From positions 1 through 48,347 of the forward strand of contig JAUYKQ010000022.1 of assembly GCA_030699905.1 (NCBI GenBank): 48,347 nt of DNA. The letters run 5' to 3'. Position numbers and translations under genes: made by a program. Positions within the stretch are counted from its first letter, which is position 1. Each line of letters begins with the position of its first letter. Shown here in pieces: positions 16,840-27,724 of the stretch. The notes beneath the pieces were generated by a model that did no database searches, was not told where the DNA came from, and saw only the letters and a program-made list of their open reading frames with translations. The stretch is from a bacterium (GTDB taxonomy: Bacteria > Patescibacteriota > Minisyncoccia > Phycocordibacterales > GCA-002787175).

Positions 16840-17154
16840 TCAAAAAAACTTTTCAATCTTCCTTCCTATTTTTGACTCAATAGCGGCAAACACTTCTTTT
16901 TGACGCATAAAAATTTCACTCTTAAGAGCGGGCCCAGCCATTATTTTTATCCTGCCATTCTCAAAAGAAACGTTTTCCTTTTTCAAAGGACGCTTCACAA
17001 CCTCAAAAACAGCTTCAATAATAGCGGTTTTTGCCGAAACAGCATCTGTTTCGGCGTTTTTAAATTTTTCTAAATAAATAGATATTTGATGCATAGCAAC
17101 AAAAAAGTATCCAGAGTAGAACCAACCCATCAAACTAATCCACTGTCCTACCAC
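16840..17154 (-). CDS. DciA-like (DUF721-type) small protein
   Basis: Up to 104 residues; the core is MHQISIYLEKFKNAETDAVSAKTA.., then VSFENGRIKIMAGPALKSEIFMRQKEVFAAIESKIGRKI. A compact strand-strand-helix pattern with KSEIFMRQKEVFAAIE resembles the DciA/DUF721 family, which helps load the replicative helicase. The position directly after dnaN fits such a role. The first possible start is a GTG overlapping the dnaN stop (17154). The ATG at 17094 gives an 84-residue protein and may be the real start. Identity is inferred from shape and context. Confidence 0.55.
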   Translation of the reverse strand: MVGQWISLMGWFYSGYFFVAMHQISIYLEKFKNAETDAVSAKTAIIEAVFEVVKRPLKKENVSFENGRIKIMAGPALKSEIFMRQKEVFAAIESKIGRKIEKFF

Positions 17155-18272
17155 TATTTATTCATAGGCATCACCAAATAAGTGAATGTGGAGTTATTTT
17201 CACCCCTTATTACAAGAGGTTTACCGGACCCGTTAAAGGAGAGAGAAACGCTATCCGCTTCAATGGAAGCAAGACAGTCCGAAATGTATTTATAGTTAAA
17301 ACTTATATCAACAGCTTCTCCGGTTACCGACGCCTTTAAAGTGTTATAGTTTTCACCTATCTCGTTGTTTTTTGTTTTTATCTCACAGTTTTTCTTTTGA
17401 GGGTCAACTGAAATATTTACTTGGTTGAAATTATCGGAAAACACAGAAGCGATTTTTAGCGAACTTAAAAGGTCTTGTTTTAACACAATGGCTTCTGTTT
17501 TGAATTCTTTTGCCAAAATCTGCTTATAGTCGGGGAACGACCCTTCTATTATCCTTGATGTTAAATAGACATCGGAAAAAACAAAAGAAACCTGATTGGA
17601 ACCTATATGAACCTCAACATCCTCGTTTTTTGCCTCCAAAACTTTTATCATCTCCGGGATGTTTTTAAACGGAACAAGGATGGGTGGAAATTTTTTATCT
17701 TGTTTTCTTTTCACCCTTTTTTCCGCCAACCGAAAAGAGTCAGTCGCCACAAAAACAACCGTCTGACCATCGGGATAAATATATACCGACGAAAGCTCCG
17801 GTTTCATACTGGAAACCGCCGCGCTATACCAAACTGACTTAAAACCCCTGACAATATCCGAAGCCGGCATAGTAAACAAATCTTCCCCCGAAAGTTTTGG
17901 TATTGTTGGAAAATCATCATGGTTTAATGTTTTTATTGAAGTTTTATTTTGCTCCGAAGAAATAGAAACAGCGCCATTTTGTCCATCAAAAGAAACACCG
18001 CCTTCTGTTTGTAAATTTGAAACAAAAGAATACAAAACACTGCCGGGAATGGCCGAAACACCTTCATTTTCAACTTTGGCGGGAAAAGTAACATCTATAC
18101 CCATATCCAAATTTGTCGCTTGCAACGAAACTTTTTTATCATTAGCTTTCAATAAAACACAAGAAAGTATCGGTAACGTAGTGTTTCTTCCTGTCACCCT
18201 TTCAACAAGAAAAAGCGCTTGTTTGAGTTTTTCTTTAACGCAACTGATTTTAAGACCTTGTTGTTCCTTCAT
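17154..18272 (-). CDS. dnaN: DNA polymerase III beta subunit (sliding clamp)
   Basis: A 372-residue clamp with three repeated domains. It begins MKEQQGLKISCVKEKLKQAL; the signature VTGRNTTLPILSCVLLKA matches the first domain. The C-terminus ends YLVMPMN, close to the usual LVMPMR-type end that forms the partner-binding pocket. It tethers polymerase to DNA and recruits repair factors. It is downstream of dnaA on the minus strand, across an origin-like spacer, and the next gene may start at the overlapping GTG. Confidence 0.96.
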   Translation of the reverse strand: MKEQQGLKISCVKEKLKQALFLVERVTGRNTTLPILSCVLLKANDKKVSLQATNLDMGIDVTFPAKVENEGVSAIPGSVLYSFVSNLQTEGGVSFDGQNGAVSISSEQNKTSIKTLNHDDFPTIPKLSGEDLFTMPASDIVRGFKSVWYSAAVSSMKPELSSVYIYPDGQTVVFVATDSFRLAEKRVKRKQDKKFPPILVPFKNIPEMIKVLEAKNEDVEVHIGSNQVSFVFSDVYLTSRIIEGSFPDYKQILAKEFKTEAIVLKQDLLSSLKIASVFSDNFNQVNISVDPQKKNCEIKTKNNEIGENYNTLKASVTGEAVDISFNYKYISDCLASIEADSVSLSFNGSGKPLVIRGENNSTFTYLVMPMNK

Positions 18273-18517
18273 TTTAGTATATTTTATATTTAAAGAGATT
18301 ATTACTACTACTAAGGGTGTGGATATGGGGATGTTATGGGTTTGGTGCTTTAAAATAAAGTGTTTTTAATGTTTTTAACTGTGGATTACTTTTGTGTTGA
18401 GTGGGATTGTTTGGGGTTAAGTAAAAAATTTAAATGTTACCTGTGGAAAACTTTAAAGTTTTTAGCGGGTTATCCAGTGGATATAAGAAGGTTTTCAACA
18501 GGTAATCAACAGGTTTT
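18273..18517. other. candidate replication origin (oriC) between dnaA and dnaN
   Basis: This 245-bp AT-rich spacer holds several DnaA-box-like 9-mers: TGTGGATAT (18318-18326), TGTGGATTA (18380-18388), TGTGGAAAA (18442-18450) and TTATCCAGT (18470-18478). Long A/T runs lie between them and TTTTCAAC-type motifs near 18491-18520. Next to the dnaN-proximal box is a DnaA-trio-like tract. The position between dnaA and dnaN and the order box, GC tract, trios towards dnaN match the unwinding module known from Bacillus subtilis. Confidence 0.7.
18299..18326 (-). promoter_or_regulatory. DnaA box, GC tract and DnaA-trios (origin unwinding module)
   Basis: The minus strand reads ATATCCACA (18326-18318), CCC, then TTAGTAGTAGTAATAA (18314-18299). 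Repeats of TAG/TAA triplets directly after a box and a short GC tract are the arrangement that lets DnaA melt DNA in the basal origin unwinding system. Confidence 0.65.
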
Positions 18518-19870
18518 TCAACTTATCATGGATTTTATTTGAGTGATCTCCCCTGCTAATATGGAATCGGTTTTCAATTCATTTTTTATTTTTTCACAAG
18601 AATGTATGACGGTGGTGTGGTCGCGACCTCCAAGTTTTTGGCCTATAAGGGGGAAAGAAACATTACACTCTTCTCTTAAAATATACATAGCCAGTTGTCT
18701 TGGCTTCACTATTTCCTTTCGTCTGGTTTTTTCATATATGCTCTGTTCCTCTATGTTATAAAAGTCGGCTATTATTTTTATAACATCTTTTATTGCCACC
18801 GCCTTTTTTGGCTGGTCATTATTTTTTACAAGGCCTTTTATTTCATTTATGTTAAGTTCCCTGCCTTTTAAATGCGTTTGGCATATTATTCCGTTCACGA
18901 GACCTTCCAATTCCCTCACACTGCCCCCCGTGGTTACCGCTATAAATTCAAGGGCATCATCGGACATCAAAACGTCATGTTGAGAGAACTTGGTCCTTAG
19001 TATTGCGAGGCGAGATTCGTGGTCGGGGGCGGGTATATCCACTATCATTCCGGCGGCAAAACGTGTCTTTAATCGGTCTTCAAGGTTTGGAATAAAGTTC
19101 GGATGTTTATCGGATGAAAATATGATTTGTTTGTTGTTTTCGTAAAGGCCGTTGAAAAGGTGGAAAAGCTCCTCTTGGCTTTTTTCTTTATTAGCCACGA
19201 ATTGAATGTCGTCCATTATCAAAACGTCGTATTTCCGATAATTTTCTTTGAATTGGTTTATTCTGTTTGATTGGATGGCGTTTACAAGCTCGGTTACGAA
19301 ACGCTCCGAGTTTATGTAATAAACCTTTTTTTCCGGAAAATTCTTCTTTATTTGGTTGCCGATTGCTTGTATAAGGTGTGTTTTGCCGTGCCCTGTGTTT
19401 CCATGGACAAAAAGAGGGTTGTATACACTTCCCGGCCTTTTTACTATTGCTTGGGAGGCGGCATGGGCCAGCTCATTAAAAGGTCCGACTACGAAGGCTT
19501 CAAAAGTGTAGCGCGGGTTTAAATTACTGTCTTTGTTTATACGGTTTTCTTCGAGTGGCAGTTCTGTATTGGAGTTTATGGGTTGGCTACCTAACGGATT
19601 ACGATTCTCTGTTTTCCGTTGATCGTTTTTCGCGACTATATACTCCAAAGAGCGGACATTTTCAGAAAGGTTACGCAGTGATTTCAGGATAAATTTATGA
19701 TACTTGTCCTGAAGCCACGTACGCACGAATGGGTTGGGAACAGCCAAATGTACCGTTCCACCCTCTTGTTTGAGGACGTAAGTGTCTTTAAACCATGTGC
19801 TGAAATTGGCCTTTGAAACAGAAAGTTCAATATCAACAAGCGCGCTGTCCCAGAGTTGTTTGTTGTCCAT
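18518..19870 (-). CDS. dnaA: chromosomal replication initiator DnaA
   Basis: A 450-residue AAA+ initiator. Domain I (LWDSALVDIELSVSKANFSTWFKDT) is followed by a linker, then RYTFEAFVVGPFNELAHAA. Walker A is GNTGHGKTH (residues 157-165; the usual form is GxxGLGKTH, so one position is unusual). Walker B is LIMDDIQF (near 217-224). Domain IV ends with GGRDHTTVIHSCEKI, the DnaA-box-binding signature. It should bind the boxes downstream at 18318-18478 and the strict box upstream at 20048. It is divergent from rpmH, as in many bacterial origins. Confidence 0.97.
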   Translation of the reverse strand: MDNKQLWDSALVDIELSVSKANFSTWFKDTYVLKQEGGTVHLAVPNPFVRTWLQDKYHKFILKSLRNLSENVRSLEYIVAKNDQRKTENRNPLGSQPINSNTELPLEENRINKDSNLNPRYTFEAFVVGPFNELAHAASQAIVKRPGSVYNPLFVHGNTGHGKTHLIQAIGNQIKKNFPEKKVYYINSERFVTELVNAIQSNRINQFKENYRKYDVLIMDDIQFVANKEKSQEELFHLFNGLYENNKQIIFSSDKHPNFIPNLEDRLKTRFAAGMIVDIPAPDHESRLAILRTKFSQHDVLMSDDALEFIAVTTGGSVRELEGLVNGIICQTHLKGRELNINEIKGLVKNNDQPKKAVAIKDVIKIIADFYNIEEQSIYEKTRRKEIVKPRQLAMYILREECNVSFPLIGQKLGGRDHTTVIHSCEKIKNELKTDSILAGEITQIKSMIS

Positions 19871-20173
19871 ATATAATCAAACTAATAACTTATAACCCGA
19901 GACCGAATCGCAAAAAGTTAGAAAGATGCTTGCAAAGAGAGTGAAGATTGTTTAGTTACAGAAGTTAAGTCATCACAGTATACTCCTTTGAGCGTAAATT
20001 AAAACTTGTGAAAAACATCCGTTTATGTTAATAATATGTGTATTAATTGTGGATAACCGAAACGCGTAGCTTGTAACGTGTAATACCATAATCTAAAACG
20101 TGTAACTTGTAACGTGTAACGCCGGGAAAGAAATACTCTGACGCTACACGCTACACGCTACACGCTACACACC
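19871..20173. other. dnaA-rpmH divergent intergenic region with strict DnaA box
   Basis: This 303-bp region has no ORF. It contains an exact DnaA box (TGTGGATAA at 20048-20056, inside an AT-rich stretch), which may serve autoregulation of dnaA or the origin. From about 20062 it is filled with heptanucleotide units. Confidence 0.7.
20062..20170. repeat. Heptanucleotide array upstream of rpmH
   Basis: Units of the GTGTAAC family (AGCTTGTAACGTGTAA.., ACTTGTAACGTGTAACG) are followed by CTACACG repeated about four times, ending three bases before the rpmH ATG. The two halves are roughly inverse complements of one another. Confidence 0.8.
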
Positions 20174-25879: not shown

Positions 25880-27691
25880 TTATCCTGTAGCGGTTTTGAG
25901 GTCGTTTTTGGCCTTCTTAATAGCCAAAAGCTGTGAAGGGTCAGATGTGATTATCTGGTCTTCGGTATAGGAAGAAATTATTTTTATGGCTACGTGTTTA
26001 AGTCCCACAAAGAAAATCCCCTCTCCCACGTCCGATTCCAAAAGCAGATATTTTTCTTCGTCCGTTAAATTAAATGTCTTTTGTATTCTGTCAATGCTTG
26101 ATGGCGATTGTTTCAAAAGGATTTGTATTGAAGAGTTGGTGATTATGGGAAGACCGTACGGGGATTTCAGAAAGTCGTCAACGTCTTGTGTGATGGTGGC
26201 AACTCCCAAATAATATTTCCGGCCTCTTTTGGCAAGCCCCAAAAGGAAAGATGCCGTATCTTCCGATTTCATCATCCACCATGCCTCGTCTATTACAAGC
26301 AGGCGTTTTTTCAGGTTTTTTCGTATGGCATTCCAAATATGGTGGGTTACAATATACATCGCCACGGGCTTTAGCTCTTCTTCCATGTCTCGCAGAGAAA
26401 ACACGACAAATTTTCCGTCTATATCAACGTTTGAAGGTCGGTTTATAAATCCGGCCCAAGTCCCGCGAGTGTATTTTGACAGGCGTTGAGCCAGCGACTC
26501 CCCGCCCTCCATTCCGGCAAGAACCAGTTCAAAATCGGACAGAAGTGGAGGTTCAATATTGCCAAAATCGGTATCCGGAGTTATATCTTTCAGCGCGTAG
26601 GTCTCCGTGATGGCGCGGTCTATGACGGCGTCTTCTTCCGGTGTAAGTCCTCCCATCATGATACGGAAAAGTCCGACTAAGTTTATTATATGCGAACGCA
26701 AAACGTCCGAACCGGACTCGTCTTCTCTCGGCGTAGGCAAGTCAAACGGATTTATGTGGTGTTCTGAATTGAGTGAAATATTGAAATATTTTCCACCAAC
26801 CGCTTCGGCAAGATATTCATATTCTCTTTCGGGGTCTATGACCAAAACCTCCGTTTCAAACATGAGGGTCCGAAGTATTTCCAATTTCGTGGCGTAGGAT
26901 TTTCCCGAACCCGACTTGGCGAAGGTTATTGAGTTGTAGTTGTCCAGCGAAAATCGGTCAAAAAGAACAAGCGAAGAGTTGTGTCTGTTTATTCCGTATA
27001 GAATTCCCTTGTCGGAAGTGAGGTCAAAAGAAATAAATGGAAAAAGAGAAGAAAGAGGTGAAGAGTTAAGTTTGGAATGAACCAAAAGTTTGTCCGTTTC
27101 GGTTGGCAGTACTGTTTTAAAACCGTTTTCCTGTTGGAACAGAGCCGGTTTTACGTAAACCAATTTTGATTCCAAAATGGATTTTATTTCCGATTCCACT
27201 TTGTCAAGCTCTTCTTCGGATTCCCCGTAAATTGAAATATAAAGTCCTACGTCGAAAAGGCGCTCTTGGGCCTGCATCAAGTCGTCGCGCAGGCGTTCCA
27301 AGTCCTGATAGGCCGTATCCAGCATGGGGTCTCGCACAAGACCCTTGTCTTCTCTTGTATGTATTTGACTTTGAACTTCAGCCACTTTTTTCTGAAATTG
27401 TCTCAAAACCTTGGATGTTTCCACGGGATGAATATAGATTGAGATATCAAATATTTTGTCTAAATTTATAATAGGTGAAAACCACCCTTCAGTGAGAAAA
27501 CGCGGGTAGGAAATAACAAAAAAAGTTCGGACGATTTTGTCGCCCAAGTTAAGAGCGCGAGGCGTGACTTTAAGGGCGGACGGAGCGATAACGTCTTTTA
27601 ACTCTAAAACACCCGCCTCATATATTTCTTGAGGCAGAATGGATGTTATTTCCGGCTGCTTTTTCTTTTTGAATATGTCTAAAAGTCCCAT
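25880..27691 (-). CDS. VirB4/TraC-like secretion ATPase
   Basis: 603 residues from the ATG at 27691 (a TTG lies six bases earlier). The motor domain has Walker A FAKSGSGKSYAT (near residue 257), EVLVIDPEREYEYL, Walker B RLLVIDEAWWMM (near 465), and a late Gln motif ATITQDVDDFL. The N-terminal 240 residues correspond to only part of the VirB4 N-domain; the missing piece is probably the separate gene at 27836-28483. VirB4 proteins power type IV secretion or pilus subunit extraction from the membrane. No relaxase, VirD4 or VirB11 was found in the window. Confidence 0.88.
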   Translation of the reverse strand: MGLLDIFKKKKQPEITSILPQEIYEAGVLELKDVIAPSALKVTPRALNLGDKIVRTFFVISYPRFLTEGWFSPIINLDKIFDISIYIHPVETSKVLRQFQKKVAEVQSQIHTREDKGLVRDPMLDTAYQDLERLRDDLMQAQERLFDVGLYISIYGESEEELDKVESEIKSILESKLVYVKPALFQQENGFKTVLPTETDKLLVHSKLNSSPLSSLFPFISFDLTSDKGILYGINRHNSSLVLFDRFSLDNYNSITFAKSGSGKSYATKLEILRTLMFETEVLVIDPEREYEYLAEAVGGKYFNISLNSEHHINPFDLPTPREDESGSDVLRSHIINLVGLFRIMMGGLTPEEDAVIDRAITETYALKDITPDTDFGNIEPPLLSDFELVLAGMEGGESLAQRLSKYTRGTWAGFINRPSNVDIDGKFVVFSLRDMEEELKPVAMYIVTHHIWNAIRKNLKKRLLVIDEAWWMMKSEDTASFLLGLAKRGRKYYLGVATITQDVDDFLKSPYGLPIITNSSIQILLKQSPSSIDRIQKTFNLTDEEKYLLLESDVGEGIFFVGLKHVAIKIISSYTEDQIITSDPSQLLAIKKAKNDLKTATG

Positions 27692-27724
27692 ATACAATTA
27701 ATATAATTCCAATTTACAAATTAA

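Follow-up and report, generated by a model that had tools for sequence, protein, structure and literature searches.

The DnaA-trio is regarded as an ancient and broadly conserved element of bacterial origins. In the basal unwinding system (BUS) of Bacillus subtilis, the trios lie on the bottom strand, opposite the box (TTATCCACA) strand, and the top strand reads 5'-CTACTATTACTTCTACTA-3' (PMC10201434). Structurally, each trio offers two bases for capture, a G to Arg202 and Glu228 and an A to Asn187 and Glu183, and strand separation is slower when the middle base of a trio is a thymine (PMC10721633). A BUS was predicted in 85% of 2,070 origins by a permissive rule, which asks for three or more NAN triplets within 16 bp of a DnaA box with at most two mismatches (PMC8287927). 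Being permissive, this NAN rule would accept arrays of either strand type. The commonest BUS arrangement (57%) is a tandem pair of co-directional boxes in which the upstream box is closer to the consensus.

We analyzed a 48,347-nucleotide stretch of DNA, hereafter called the window, from an ultra-small, uncultured Parcubacteria bacterium with a draft genome of 815,879 bp (31 contigs). Judged by DnaA, the closest named relatives belong to the Parcubacteria (Taylor-, Zambryski-, Nomura-, Kaiser-, and Vogelbacteria). The best PDB match of this DnaA is the B. subtilis protein in its BUS complex (8btg). The genes are ordered rpmH-rnpA-yidC-jag / dnaA-dnaN, the first four lying beyond dnaA in the opposite direction, and dnaN starts with an ATG at position 18272 of the minus strand. 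Judging from sequence, the gap between dnaA and dnaN is very probably oriC. A sequence-only reading of the same DNA had placed the origin here, and its call is borne out by the gene neighborhood, by the skew at third codon positions, and by the conservation of the array across the order.

Along the window, the sign of the raw GC skew switches near 18 kb, and the skew is negative again further right, a disturbance that coincides with a run of minus-strand genes. We split the skew by gene strand and by third codon position (GC3), which resolved a displacement of the raw minimum of about 20 kb in the window and in a complete relative (G004). Left of the gap, the plus-strand skew at third codon positions is −0.147 for plus-strand genes and −0.112 for minus-strand genes; right of it, the values are +0.072 and +0.057, respectively. 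The cumulative GC3 skew reaches its minimum between dnaN and dnaA, at a depth attained by 0.2% of permutations (p = 0.002). As the GC3 skew reverses exactly there, we take the gap as oriC. The earlier reading had named a skew minimum at this site as one check of its call: the GC3 minimum is found exactly in the gap, and that of the raw cumulative skew of the window is not. In G004, the GC3 minimum lies within the gene adjoining dnaN, and the raw skew has its minimum 20–25 kb from dnaA and its maximum near 480 kb.

The gap is also the densest cluster of DnaA boxes. Stretches of 245 bp contain up to eight boxes with at most one mismatch at this place, the maximum of the window, against a mean of 0.8. 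On the minus strand, the gap reads ...ACATCCCC ATATCCACA CCCT TAG TAG TAG TAA TAA TCTCTTTAAATATAAAATATACTAAA ATG (table 1). The letters reported previously, CCC followed by TTAGTAG..., are real; the correct division is CCCT, then TAG. The three further box-like 9-mers announced on the dnaA side (TAATCCACA, TTTTCCACA, and ATATCCACT) are present. Forward boxes occupy the part of the gap towards dnaN and inverted boxes its dnaA end, where inverted boxes are enriched across the order as well (1.25 per origin in the first octile vs. 0.13 in shuffled sequences).

Table 1. Components of the predicted origin and the two genes that border it; positions refer to the window.
Feature	Position	Strand	Remarks
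dnaN	17154..18272	−	372 aa, beta clamp; three Pfam beta-clamp domains
Probable oriC (dnaA-dnaN intergenic region)	18273..18517	−	245 bp; cumulative GC3 skew minimum, densest DnaA-box cluster
AT-rich stretch from the array to the dnaN start	18273..18298	−	AT-rich after the array across the order too
Triplet array TAG TAG TAG TAA TAA	18299..18313	− (box strand)	Complement 5'-TTATTACTACTACTA-3'
Spacer CCCT	18314..18317	−	4 nt
Proximal DnaA box ATATCCACA, adjoining the array	18318..18326	−	1 mismatch; conserved across the order
Degenerate upstream half of the tandem pair, ACATCCCCA	18326..18334	−	3 mismatches, C at position 7
DnaA box TAATCCACA	18380..18388	−	1 mismatch
DnaA box TTTTCCACA	18442..18450	−	
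Weak DnaA box ATATCCACT	18476..18484	−	Faces weak inverted box TTATCCAGT, 18470-18478 (+)
Three inverted DnaA-box-like sites by the dnaA stop	18492..18523	+	TTTTCAACA 18492-18500, TAATCAACA 18503-18511, TTTTCAACT 18515-18523
dnaA	18518..19870	−	450 aa; DnaA_N, Bac_DnaA, Bac_DnaA_C (Pfam, over cut-off)

A box followed by four nucleotides and four TAR has a single match in the 815,879-bp genome, for an iid expectation of 0.002, and the reversed control has none in the whole genome. Five consecutive TAR occur once in the window. That the raw skew has no minimum at the gap within the window would suit a locus that is not an origin and a pattern arisen by chance in AT-rich intergenic DNA. However, the pattern is unique in the genome and conserved, and the GC3 skew turns exactly at the gap; we regard such a coincidence as highly implausible.

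The locus resembles the B. subtilis BUS at boxes 6 and 7 of incC by its position between dnaA and dnaN, its 4-nt GC-rich spacer, its five triplets, its AT-rich stretch, and its further boxes towards dnaA. The proximal box is equivalent in position to box 7. The two tandem halves, ACATCCCCA and ATATCCACA, are 8 bp apart, a co-directional spacing found in three of four Bacillota origins. According to the NAN rule the locus is a BUS, with one mismatch in ATATCCACA, a 4-nt spacer, and five TAR, NAN being satisfied on either strand (PMC8287927). The spacer CCCT likewise corresponds to the short GC-rich spacer (about 4 bp) of a BUS. By contrast, the 3'-GAT-5' trios expected on the complement of the TTATCCACA strand are lacking, and the TAR triplets are on the box strand itself. 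The upstream box is degenerate, TAR stands in place of YTA, and two residues of DnaA differ from those of B. subtilis (Asn187 to Thr193 and Arg202 to Lys208).

In the dnaA-dnaN gaps of four Bacillota, the box is followed by 4 nt and by (YTA)n on the box strand in four of four cases, and by an inverted array in none. These are the origins of Priestia (TTATCCAC ATTTCCACA GCCC CTATTACTACTACTA), Acetoanaerobium (TTATCCAC AAATCAACA CTCC CTATTACTATTACTACTA), Latilactobacillus (GGTTCCACA GGCC CTACTACTATTA), and Paenibacillus (TTATCCAC ATATTCACC GCGC CTATTACTATTA). The statement that the locus copies the B. subtilis module therefore needs amending: it holds for the box, the spacer, the register, and the tandem spacing, and fails for the strand of the trios, since the box strand reads TAR here and YTA in Bacillota. 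The converse assignment, in which the TAR of the window is canonical and the TAY found at gap 5 in other classes is the variant, was overturned by the published strand statements for B. subtilis and by these Bacillota origins.

For the order to which the window belongs, we aligned the origins on the last good box, picked blind to the triplets. This box is followed by a 4-nt spacer of unconserved letters and then by a T-A-R periodicity over about 15 nt. The spacer is enriched in GC (49% vs. 25% for the intergenic region). What had been described as a GC tract is thus conserved in its length of four and in its GC enrichment, not in its letters. Among same-strand boxes, 8 bp is the commonest spacing (79 pairs), and most relatives have a good tandem pair at this distance. 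Canonical YTA arrays at gap 4 were found in none of the 127 genomes of the order (0.05 in shuffles). About half of the origins of the order do not match the strict TAR pattern. Within the genus, one congener (G001) has five TAN triplets, and the closest one (G002; L003, upstream of dnaN) has kept the tandem boxes and the 4-nt spacer with two triplets only (TAATAA, then GGAACT). The conservation of the trios in relatives, which the earlier reading had also named as a check, is clear at the level of the order and mixed at that of the genus.

The origins without the strict pattern and the two triplets of G002 are what one would expect if the array were not read by DnaA and were just an easily melted repeat, opening through its AT-richness. 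AT-richness alone, however, would fix neither the phase nor the strand of the triplets, and at least three TAR on the box strand at a gap of exactly 4 are present in 59 of the 127 genomes, against 0.25 in shuffles. We consider an unread repeat improbable.

The phase of the arrays identifies their unit. In the order, a purine is found in 30% of cases before the first TA, in 91% at internal third bases, and in 92% after the last TA, which defines the unit as TAR, beginning at +5. Other classes have a pyrimidine immediately ahead of the first TA in 96%, which gives YTA as the unit, again beginning at +5. Since both units start at the same position, the two arrays are complements in the same register. 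At the sequence level, the array of the window is the in-place complement of the canonical array, with the same box, spacer, and register and the opposite strand. It is highly likely, in our view, that the gap is an oriC carrying such a strand-inverted array. The locus would still be an ordinary BUS if DnaA moved its reading frame on the usual strand by one base and recognized generic NAN trios (3'-YAT-5'). In that frame, the complement strand conforms to NAN, and under the published rule any NAN counts that lies no more than 16 bp from a box (PMC8287927). But this frame misfits the edges of the array, given the T at +5, the final purine on the box strand, and the rarity of a purine at the preceding base, and, besides the shift, the captured base would have to change from a purine to a pyrimidine. 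We give it little credence.

Other classes of Patescibacteria share with the window the location between dnaA and dnaN, the boxes, the 4-nt spacer, and the triplets, and differ by a canonical YTA on the box strand and a DnaA mostly with Asn187. At gap 4, canonical arrays were found in 20 of 66 of their origins and an inverted one in 1 of 66. In other orders of the window's own class, four of 58 origins are inverted and three canonical. The three clear canonical members (L314, L319, and L338) all belong to family f185. Flipped arrays within the class were seen in L306, L307, L310, and L311 (families f166 and f145). As YTA and TAR both occur within the class, the switch can be narrowed down to a short segment of the tree. 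On the DnaA tree, the array states require 5 changes, compared with 27.6 for shuffled labels, which indicates an old and stable flip with few events.

In addition to the two substitutions mentioned above, Ile190 of B. subtilis DnaA is replaced by Val196 in the window. Glu183, Ile193, Lys222, and Glu228 of the trio pocket (B. subtilis numbering) are kept. All members of the order have Lys202 (127/127), and few have Asn187. Position 187 is an Asn in 8% of inverted versus 84% of canonical origins. A link between the loss of Asn187 and the flip that is independent of ancestry was not supported by independent pairs on the DnaA tree (sign test, median p = 1), and L307, L320, and L322, from neighboring orders, have an inverted array yet keep the Asn.

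From the sequence, its conservation, the skew, and the DnaA substitutions, we infer how DnaA might bind, open the DNA, and choose a strand at this origin. DnaA-ATP would bind the box at 18326-18318, with its weak partner 8 bp upstream, aided by the boxes further towards dnaA. The AAA+ oligomer would then extend over the 4-nt spacer to one of the two array strands and open the DNA, and the helicase would be loaded from the opened triplets. As to the strand, DnaA may engage the usual one, opposite the box strand, without a change of register, while 3'-RAT-5' is replaced in place by 3'-ATY-5' as the code. Of the two captured bases, the first would remain a purine, the second would change from A to T, and the contact with Asn187 would be dropped. 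We favor this recoding, under which box orientation, spacer, register, and filament polarity are all kept, in accord with the usual strand polarity (PMC10721633, PMC10316083). Against this reading stands the effect of a middle-base thymine in B. subtilis, with which the strands separate more slowly (PMC10721633). Taken as a whole, an oriC with a strand-inverted array whose DnaA reads a recoded 3'-ATY-5' trio on the usual strand is a tentative proposal that we would not yet call probable, and recoding on the usual strand is our preference, equally tentative, over a change of strand.

Such a strand swap, in which DnaA captures 5'-TAR-3' on the box strand, would give the oligomer a polarity opposite to that in B. 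subtilis relative to the box and place the first helicase on the other strand. It would explain why the units are exactly TAR in phase, matching the known trio letters, and why the order conserves Glu228 and Lys202 of the purine pocket as well as Glu183 of the ISM. However, DnaA of B. subtilis, Escherichia coli, and Thermotoga maritima binds the strand opposite the box strand (PMC10201434, PMC10316083), the orientation of the box fixes the polarity of the filament, and Asn187, which contacts the trio adenine, is mostly lost in just the flipped group. A swap therefore appears rather unlikely to us, and recoding on the usual strand remains the reading that we prefer.

Other described origins can be compared with that of the window. 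As in the window, oriC2 of Helicobacter pylori combines a fused pair of a weak and a strong box (ts1/ts2), a GC-rich spacer, and a trio array. Its ts1 box has a C at position 7, like ACATCCCCA of the window, a feature described for weak ATP-DnaA boxes (PMC8235120). In contrast to the window, its trios are given as their complement, 5'-CTA-3' repeats (PMC8235120), an orientation that we take to be canonical. In the recruitment of the single-stranded unwinding element (ssDUE) in E. coli and T. maritima, through TT[G/A]T(T) and the eTrio TAG, respectively, a box-bound DnaA oligomer similarly binds a specific single strand (PMC10316083). There the bound strand is the upper, or complement, strand; the TAG repeats of T. 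maritima are on this upper strand, whereas TAG in the window is on the box strand. DnaB is encoded in the genome of the window. DciA was not found in it, and no IstB/DnaC-type protein scored over the cut-off except DnaA itself.

We think it fairly probable that the whole Parcubacteria order and some neighboring families of its class open the chromosome via an in-place complement of the canonical trio array, either with a 3'-ATY-5' code on the usual strand or on a switched strand. If true, both the single-strand code and the strand choice of bacterial origin unwinding would be evolvable. The strand captured by DnaA decides the direction in which the first helicase is loaded. With complemented triplets behind an unchanged box, spacer, and register, and with both forms present in one class, these origins would constitute a natural experiment on how DnaA reads single-stranded DNA. 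Short oligonucleotide scaffolds together with purified DnaA would suffice to test it, with no need for culture, and the flipped array could serve as a rule by which origins are located in draft genomes of Parcubacteria. A partial literature search returned no report of a strand-inverted trio array, and a likewise partial search no publication joining the DnaA-trio and Patescibacteria. In their titles and abstracts, the publications on the Candidate Phyla Radiation, oriC, and DnaA that this search returned do not treat origin unwinding.

Several minor observations were made. The exact B. subtilis trio sequence matched 20 viral contigs, none with a DnaA-box-like sequence upstream of the match. 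In a Priestia megaterium record labeled as a plasmid (L263, NZ_CP140268.1), dnaA and dnaN accompany a complete unwinding module of the canonical type. dnaA was also seen in several other records labeled as plasmids, and some of these dnaA-bearing records may be pieces of chromosomes. In the window, a 104-aa open frame (16840-17154, minus strand) directly follows dnaN and has no Pfam match. A TraG/VirB4-type P-loop ATPase is encoded near the origin (25880-27697, minus strand); type IV secretion clusters with ATPases of this type have been reported in Patescibacteria (PMC12102498). Upstream of dnaA, we observed short direct repeats (20141-20170 and 20050-20140), consisting of GTGTAGC units and then CACGTTACAAG-like units, as well as a TTATCCACA box (20048-20056). 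These repeats and this box are possibly a second box region or part of the control of the dnaA promoter.
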